In this document: in pieces, positions 27,870-63,990 of the stretch
Position numbering within the stretch: position 1 is the first letter of the stretch
Layout: each line of letters starts with the position of its first letter
Source of the DNA: Astropecten irregularis
Lineage: Eukaryota; Echinodermata; Asteroidea; Paxillosida; Astropectinidae
Direction: 5' to 3'
NCBI GenBank assembly: GCA_963971285.1
Contig: OZ020244.1
Coordinates: 23,622,001 to 23,686,000 of the forward strand
DNA length: 64,000 nucleotides
Notes under the pieces: generated by a model
Seen by the model: the letters and a program-made list of their open reading frames with translations, nothing else
The model's database searches: none
What the model was told of the DNA's origin: nothing
Program-made: the position numbers and the translations under genes

Positions 27870-27957
27870 ATGGTGGACAAACCGGTCATCATGCGACTGG
27901 TTTTGACTGCAATGCTGTGCCTGCTAGGCTCGTGTGCTCTACCTATTTTTCACGAAG
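27870..27957 (+). CDS. First coding exon of gene 3: signal peptide
   Basis: ATG in a good context (ATCATGG) begins [17 protein letters not shown], a hydrophobic core [11 protein letters not shown], then SCALP as a plausible signal peptidase site. The donor is GTAAGA with a phase-1 end. Met at codon 8 is an alternative start that would leave a tighter signal peptide. The ~240 bases upstream form a probable 5' UTR and promoter, with no clear TATA box. Confidence 0.75.

Positions 27958-63990: not shown

Follow-up and report, generated by a model that had tools for sequence, protein, structure and literature searches.

Does a single gene of the echinoderm Astropecten irregularis join a cadherin domain, a tandem array of modules and a discoidin (F5/8C) domain in one secreted protein, and do its modules belong to any named family? 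The question is raised by a stretch of 64,000 nucleotides of contig OZ020244.1 (positions 23,622,001 to 23,686,000 of the forward strand, C1:23622001-23686000 in our numbering, hereafter the window), part of a genome of 475.7 Mb in 168 contigs. A plus-strand exon chain starts here at position 27870, for which a first-pass annotation had proposed a secreted protein with an EGF-like region, a cadherin-type domain, seven DUF11-like tandem modules and a discoidin domain. We consider it fairly probable that the chain is a single gene whose product, a secreted protein of modular build, serves in extracellular adhesion or as part of the matrix, with a predicted stalk of beta-sandwich modules, a cadherin cap and an F5/8C anchor.

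An exon chain on the plus strand of the window

The chain was derived from a stop-to-stop reading and a simple home-made splice and coding score. The best automatic chain of the region scored 348.2 on the plus strand and 45.0 on the minus strand; without its low-complexity array it still reached 340.5, and the maximum over 20 dinucleotide shuffles was 14.9. The curated model was made from the automatic chain by eye, phase and domain content, and differs from it: the automatic chain took in repeat or low-complexity pieces at 34294-34573, 58654-58849 and 63021-63086, and missed the exons starting at 35059 and 39095. Inside the window, the curated model comprises 23 exons and 1423 amino acids without a stop, and none of the 23 exon intervals overlaps a repeat, though 12,443 of the 36,201 bases there are repeats when the window is compared with itself. 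An earlier 22-exon model, with a single exon at 61342-61510 instead of 60403-60513 and 61396-61510, was dropped.

The first-pass annotation had ended the gene at 63990. The gene is in fact open at the window edge: its exon starting at 63928 continues to window-equivalent position 64130, and five further exons follow (64881-65055, 66467-66629, 67629-67681, 68120-68395 and the terminal 69691-69794, all window-equivalent and on the plus strand). Completed with downstream genomic DNA, it has 28 exons and 1726 amino acids; its reading frame stops at window-equivalent 69794, and an AATAAA begins 74 bases past the stop codon. Exon 67629-67681 was read in a frame other than its best-scoring one, the choice being made by phase. 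The phase consistency claimed for a 23-exon chain was thus confirmed, with AG/GT at every internal border, fitting phases throughout and no internal stop, but the exon count rises to 28. As read from the genome, we take the chain from 27870 to be a real animal gene.

Two kinds of repeat were also noticed in the window. An interspersed repeat present in two copies that look alike by eye (3282-3603 and 34294-34573, plus strand) has an open frame rich in G and P that misleads exon finders, and in an intron, at 58674-58824, some 25 hexamers (AGGCTC) repeated in tandem are open on both strands.

Order of domains in the predicted protein

All parts of the gene lie on the plus strand. The predicted protein runs from a signal peptide through a Cys-rich, EGF-like region to one cadherin domain, six modules of about 160 amino acids each (M1-M6), a further segment (M7), a complete F5/8C domain and 197 C-terminal residues. 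Exon 1 (27870..27957) encodes the signal peptide of 29 residues, which holds the top hydropathy window of the protein, exon 2 (35059..35146) a Cys-containing N-terminal segment, and exon 3 (39095..39189) the EGF-like region. Exon 4 (40206..40615) carries the cadherin domain together with a Cys-rich CPCA stretch. Its nearest PDB sequence in a phmmer search was Protocadherin-15 (E = 6.6e-5), in agreement with the cadherin-type domain first proposed. The Pfam listing for this copy contains no cadherin; the homologous domain of a second gene, described below, scores 30.8 against the PF00028 cut-off of 28.8.

The F5/8C domain starts in exon 62008..62148 and continues in the exon at 63928..64000 of the window, which runs on to 64130. 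The half lying within the window had neuropilin-1 as its nearest PDB entry (E = 4.1e-7), without a Pfam listing. Once the domain was completed with the exons beyond the window, PF00754 matched over positions 1-122 of its 127 (E = 1.3e-18, 67.8 bits, cut-off 28.2), which bears out the discoidin assignment. The C-terminal 197 amino acids, which have a Cys-rich end, gave no listing in Pfam or PDB at E ≤ 10. Outside the signal peptide, the mean hydropathy over 19 residues peaks at 1.55, which argues for a protein that is probably secreted, with no obvious transmembrane helix. It contains 27 N-glycosylation sequons.

F5/8C domains are abundant in this genome. There are at least 152 matches (150 of 895 candidates scored), many of them densely clustered, on contigs C8, C11, C23, C24, C28 and others.

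Six homologous tandem modules

Each of M1-M6 is opened by a phase-0 intron. M1 spans 42051..43053 (exons 42051-42338 and 42835-43053), M2 44104..47120 (44104-44227, 45998-46165 and 46942-47120), M3 48436..49888 (48436-48695 and 49651-49888), M4 50972..52083 (50972-51278 and 51908-52083), M5 52965..55533 (52965-53194, 54197-54290 and 55381-55533) and M6 56816..58649 (56816-57098 and 58397-58649). The second exon of M6 also carries the start of M7, which continues in 59518..61510 (exons 59518-59704, 60403-60513 and 61396-61510). By eye, a phase-1 intron falls just past the xLGxVxN signature in M2, M4 and M6, and before it in M1, M3 and M5.

Profiles built by leaving out one module at a time recognized all six of M1-M6: among 3,000 shuffles per module (2,658-2,938 of them reported), those scoring as well numbered 1, 0, 0, 0, 0 and 0. 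Pairwise comparisons were most significant for M4-M5 (z = 7.8), followed by M1-M6 and M2-M3 (both 4.4), M4-M6 (3.6) and M3-M4 (3.5); several other pairs were without significance, among them M1-M4 (-0.6), M2-M4 (0.8), M1-M2 (0.9) and M1-M5 (0.9). Aligned by hhalign, M1-M3 and M4-M6 gave a probability of 30% (P = 5e-4). Within the window, the module profile found its own 14 exon frames and nothing further below E = 2.4. M7 behaved differently from M1-M6, as 119 shuffles matched the profile equally well (among 2,400 reported of 3,000) and its homology to M1-M6 is not shown. Of the seven tandem modules initially claimed, six can therefore be retained, while M7 fails the shuffle test. The motifs said to be shared likewise proved to be majority patterns when inspected by eye, PGE being exact in three of the six modules, although the final N of DLGxVxN is present in all six. 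Beta-type periodicity was seen in M1-M6 (z = 1.0-3.2), with helical z at most 0.9.

No match of M1-M7 in Pfam or NCBIfam reached a curated cut-off, in searches where HMMER filters discard most matches above about 0.1 and very weak ones may go unseen. A number of sub-threshold listings were taken as chance, among them, in Pfam, DUF2442 (E = 0.012, the best of all modules) and SQAPI (E = 0.021) for M2, DUF7728 (E = 0.041) for M6, DUF1918 (E = 0.067-0.087) for M7, Monooxygenase_B (E = 0.13) for M5, Ig_CFAP65 (E = 0.17) for M1 and DUF4183 (E = 0.17) for M4; in NCBIfam, Uxx_star (E = 0.046) for M7. Profile searches of PDB returned nothing with six modules and one match at E = 2.2 with eight. Against plasmids and phages, where M7 was the segment searched, the only matches had E ≥ 4. 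An earlier version of M7 was used in the first Pfam and NCBIfam searches, in the PDB search with M7 and in the plasmid and phage searches; the final version was rescanned in Pfam and NCBIfam.

A second gene with the same order and phases

A genome search with M1-M7 gave at least 18 matches at E ≤ 1 (20 candidates scored), of which 17 are the gene's own exons. The remaining one (C1:35457445-35457702, opposite strand, E = 0.013, 34% identity) belongs to a second gene 11.8 Mb away. There, a cadherin exon (phases 2/0) is followed by an M1 equivalent (M1'; 0/0 for its first exon, phase 0 at the start of its second) and an M2 equivalent (M2'; 0/1, 2/1, 2/0), and both the order and the intron phases match those of cadherin-M1-M2 in the first gene. 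The two cadherin domains align with z = 12.3 (29% identity) and have the Cys-rich CPCA stretch in common. Among eight segments compared, M1' was best matched by M1 (z = 18.2, 33% identity) and M2' by M2 (z = 10.4, 23% identity). A profile built without the paralogous copies gave 79.3 bits for M1' and 45.1 bits for M2', with a maximum of 9.8 for shuffles.

Our model of the paralogue covers the cadherin domain, M1' and M2' only; a candidate exon between them (L035:2334-2473) was excluded, and M1' was given a second exon that stops after VDD, short of the best-scoring end of this exon at L035:3203. Two sub-threshold matches in the paralogue, TamB (E = 0.077) and HET-S (E = 0.64), were taken as chance. 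Beside other F5/8C exons, in 28 loci of 3-10 kb (L001-L008 and L015-L034), no module copy was found at E ≤ 1.

That the paralogue repeats cadherin-M1-M2 with the same order and phases argues that this part of the first gene is one gene and that the module is a true family. As judged by the comparisons above, the six tandem modules are such a family, unrecognized by the libraries searched. The initial description, a secreted modular protein in which an EGF-like region and a cadherin domain precede tandem modules and a discoidin domain, is also supported.

A proposed arrangement and alternative explanations

In the arrangement that we favour, the modules would be beta-sandwiches and together make up a semi-rigid stalk. 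The cadherin domain, which carries additional cysteines, would cap one end and perhaps bind calcium or a partner; towards the opposite end, the F5/8C domain may bind glycan, lipid or collagen. The protein would thereby act as a secreted, extended, rod-like linker bridging cell surface and matrix.

Some of our observations weigh against this reading, as regards both the modules and the exon chain. The stalk and bridging roles are drawn from domain knowledge. The periodicity test is a weak one, given that the cadherin control, a known beta domain, reached z = 0.4 only, and the Chou-Fasman averages of M1 and M4 are at least as high for helix as for beta. AlphaFold predictions of the first exon of M4 with four related exons (pLDDT 43.3) and of the cadherin exon alone (34.9) were both of very low confidence, and therefore show no fold. 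The EGF-like region resembles EGF in its cysteine spacing by eye, but in Pfam it only reaches 10.3 bits with EGF_Teneurin (cut-off 24.3, E = 0.81). As for the chain, it was assembled from genomic sequence, with the home-made score, inspection by eye and phase guiding the choice of exons. Exon 1, the least certain, is separated from exon 2 by 7.1 kb and has a score of -3.1 once the exon penalty is applied. The acceptors at 52965 (-1.8) and 42835 (-0.1) are weak, and the terminal exon 69691-69794 (score 11.5) was preferred by phase over 75442-75821 (14.0) and a longer 69630-69794 (13.1).

A first alternative, which we regard as unlikely, is that the modules are diverged members of a named Ig-like or E-set family, either DUF11 repeats of the bacterial type or the calf-type domains of integrin alpha, beyond the reach of sequence methods. 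The protein would then be an ordinary modular adhesion protein built of known domains. By eye, the pattern is alike (a PGE turn and an LG-V-N step ahead of an alternating strand), and the DUF11 (PF01345) repeat proteins of bacteria likewise have tandem repeats and a loosely similar strand pattern. In beta periodicity the modules also come close to integrin alpha-V calf-1 (z = 3.5), and beta-2-microglobulin, an Ig fold, had appeared in PDB at E = 0.42 for the earlier version of M7, a match taken as chance. However, DUF11 was listed for none of M1-M7 in Pfam (E ≤ 10) or NCBIfam (E ≤ 5 and 10), nor was any integrin family for any module in either library, and the PDB profile searches described above speak against this alternative as well. 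In hhalign, the six-module profile matched a typed DUF11 consensus with a probability of at most 0.6% (score 10.0), slightly exceeding the best of 60 shuffles (0.4%, 8.6); against alpha-V calf-1 it reached at most 0.2%, below the best of 60 shuffles (0.6%), and calf-type homology is not supported. The label DUF11-like can thus not be upheld, the modules differing from those repeats in having no profile match. These failed tests mean that membership is not shown; a similar fold would still be compatible with them, because both structure predictions were of very low confidence.

A second and improbable explanation is that the chain fuses two or more neighbouring genes, or that its first or C-terminal exons belong elsewhere. 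The distant, poorly scoring exon 1, the weak splice sites, the choice of a terminal exon among several candidates and the weak standing of M7 would all fit such a fusion. On the other side stand the consistent phases across 28 exons, the phase-0 start of six of six modules, and the paralogue, where cadherin, M1 and M2 occur in the same order with the same phases.

It is very improbable that the gene derives from a mega-thrombospondin by rearrangement, or that it is some other known protein with discoidin and cadherin domains: mega-thrombospondins of bilaterians do combine cadherin, FN3/Ig and discoidin domains in one large secreted protein, as described in PMC6526912, but there about 1000 amino acids of leucine-rich repeats precede the cadherin and a thrombospondin C-terminal region follows, and Pfam lists neither in the segments making up our protein, whose chain ends in 197 amino acids without a match; we rejected the identity.

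Neighbouring features

Upstream of the gene, exons of an inter-alpha-trypsin inhibitor heavy-chain gene lie at 4703-23449 on the plus strand (VWA, E = 2.4e-7; ITI_HC_C, E = 3.7e-6, 27.1 bits against a cut-off of 27). Opposite to it, on the minus strand, are two long frames that look similar by eye (10607-11188 and 12281-12830), with no Pfam match at E ≤ 0.01. An Rfam tRNA match on the plus strand (13651-13724, 34.7 bits, gathering score 29) was not reported by ARAGORN. A match to the Histone 3' stem-loop, exactly at the Rfam gathering score (34 bits), lies on the minus strand in an intron of the gene studied here (58034-58079). Downstream of this gene, a tandem array contains long, near-alike frames that by eye are receptor-like with seven helices (L014:1002-2153, 3270-4225 and 8813-9818). 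A long open repeat of the type GTKAVTRGTKAVNRG is found at L011:673-2177.

Discussion

A literature search found no protein described with the cadherin-modules-discoidin architecture, annotated animal protein databases being outside that search, and the gene may already be listed there as an uncharacterized protein. The nearest described architecture is that of the mega-thrombospondins (PMC6526912): these are secreted animal proteins of large size whose central part holds cadherin and, in bilaterians, also discoidin domains. Unlike in these, no named domain corresponds to the tandem modules of our protein. The atypical cadherins of an echinoderm set (PMC10734073) likewise contain cadherin domains, the one here being nearest in PDB to Protocadherin-15, whereas our protein has a single cadherin domain, no membrane anchor and no cadherin tandem. 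The main text of that paper does not use the term discoidin, but its query set was restricted to proteins with a transmembrane domain and may thus omit a secreted one. With neuropilin-type F5/8C proteins, our protein shares a complete F5/8C domain, whose nearest PDB entry is neuropilin-1, but its partner domains differ, as Pfam lists no CUB or MAM here.

Going by domain content and order, the two genes look like a small, undescribed family of extracellular adhesion proteins. A fuller proposal, whose chances we judge to be evenly balanced, is that they would be the founding pair of an undescribed secreted adhesion family with two uncatalogued domain families (the xLGxVxN module of about 160 amino acids and a C-terminal domain of about 197), a cysteine-modified cadherin cap and a discoidin anchor, in which the array would have arisen by exon-bounded, phase-0 tandem duplication and the cadherin-M1-M2 block would predate the gene duplication. 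If right, this would add to the animal extracellular adhesion toolkit a module family unrecognized by Pfam, NCBIfam and the PDB sequence set. The exon borders of the modules could then be used for expression and structure work, and comparison with the second gene would make it possible to look for relatives in other animals.
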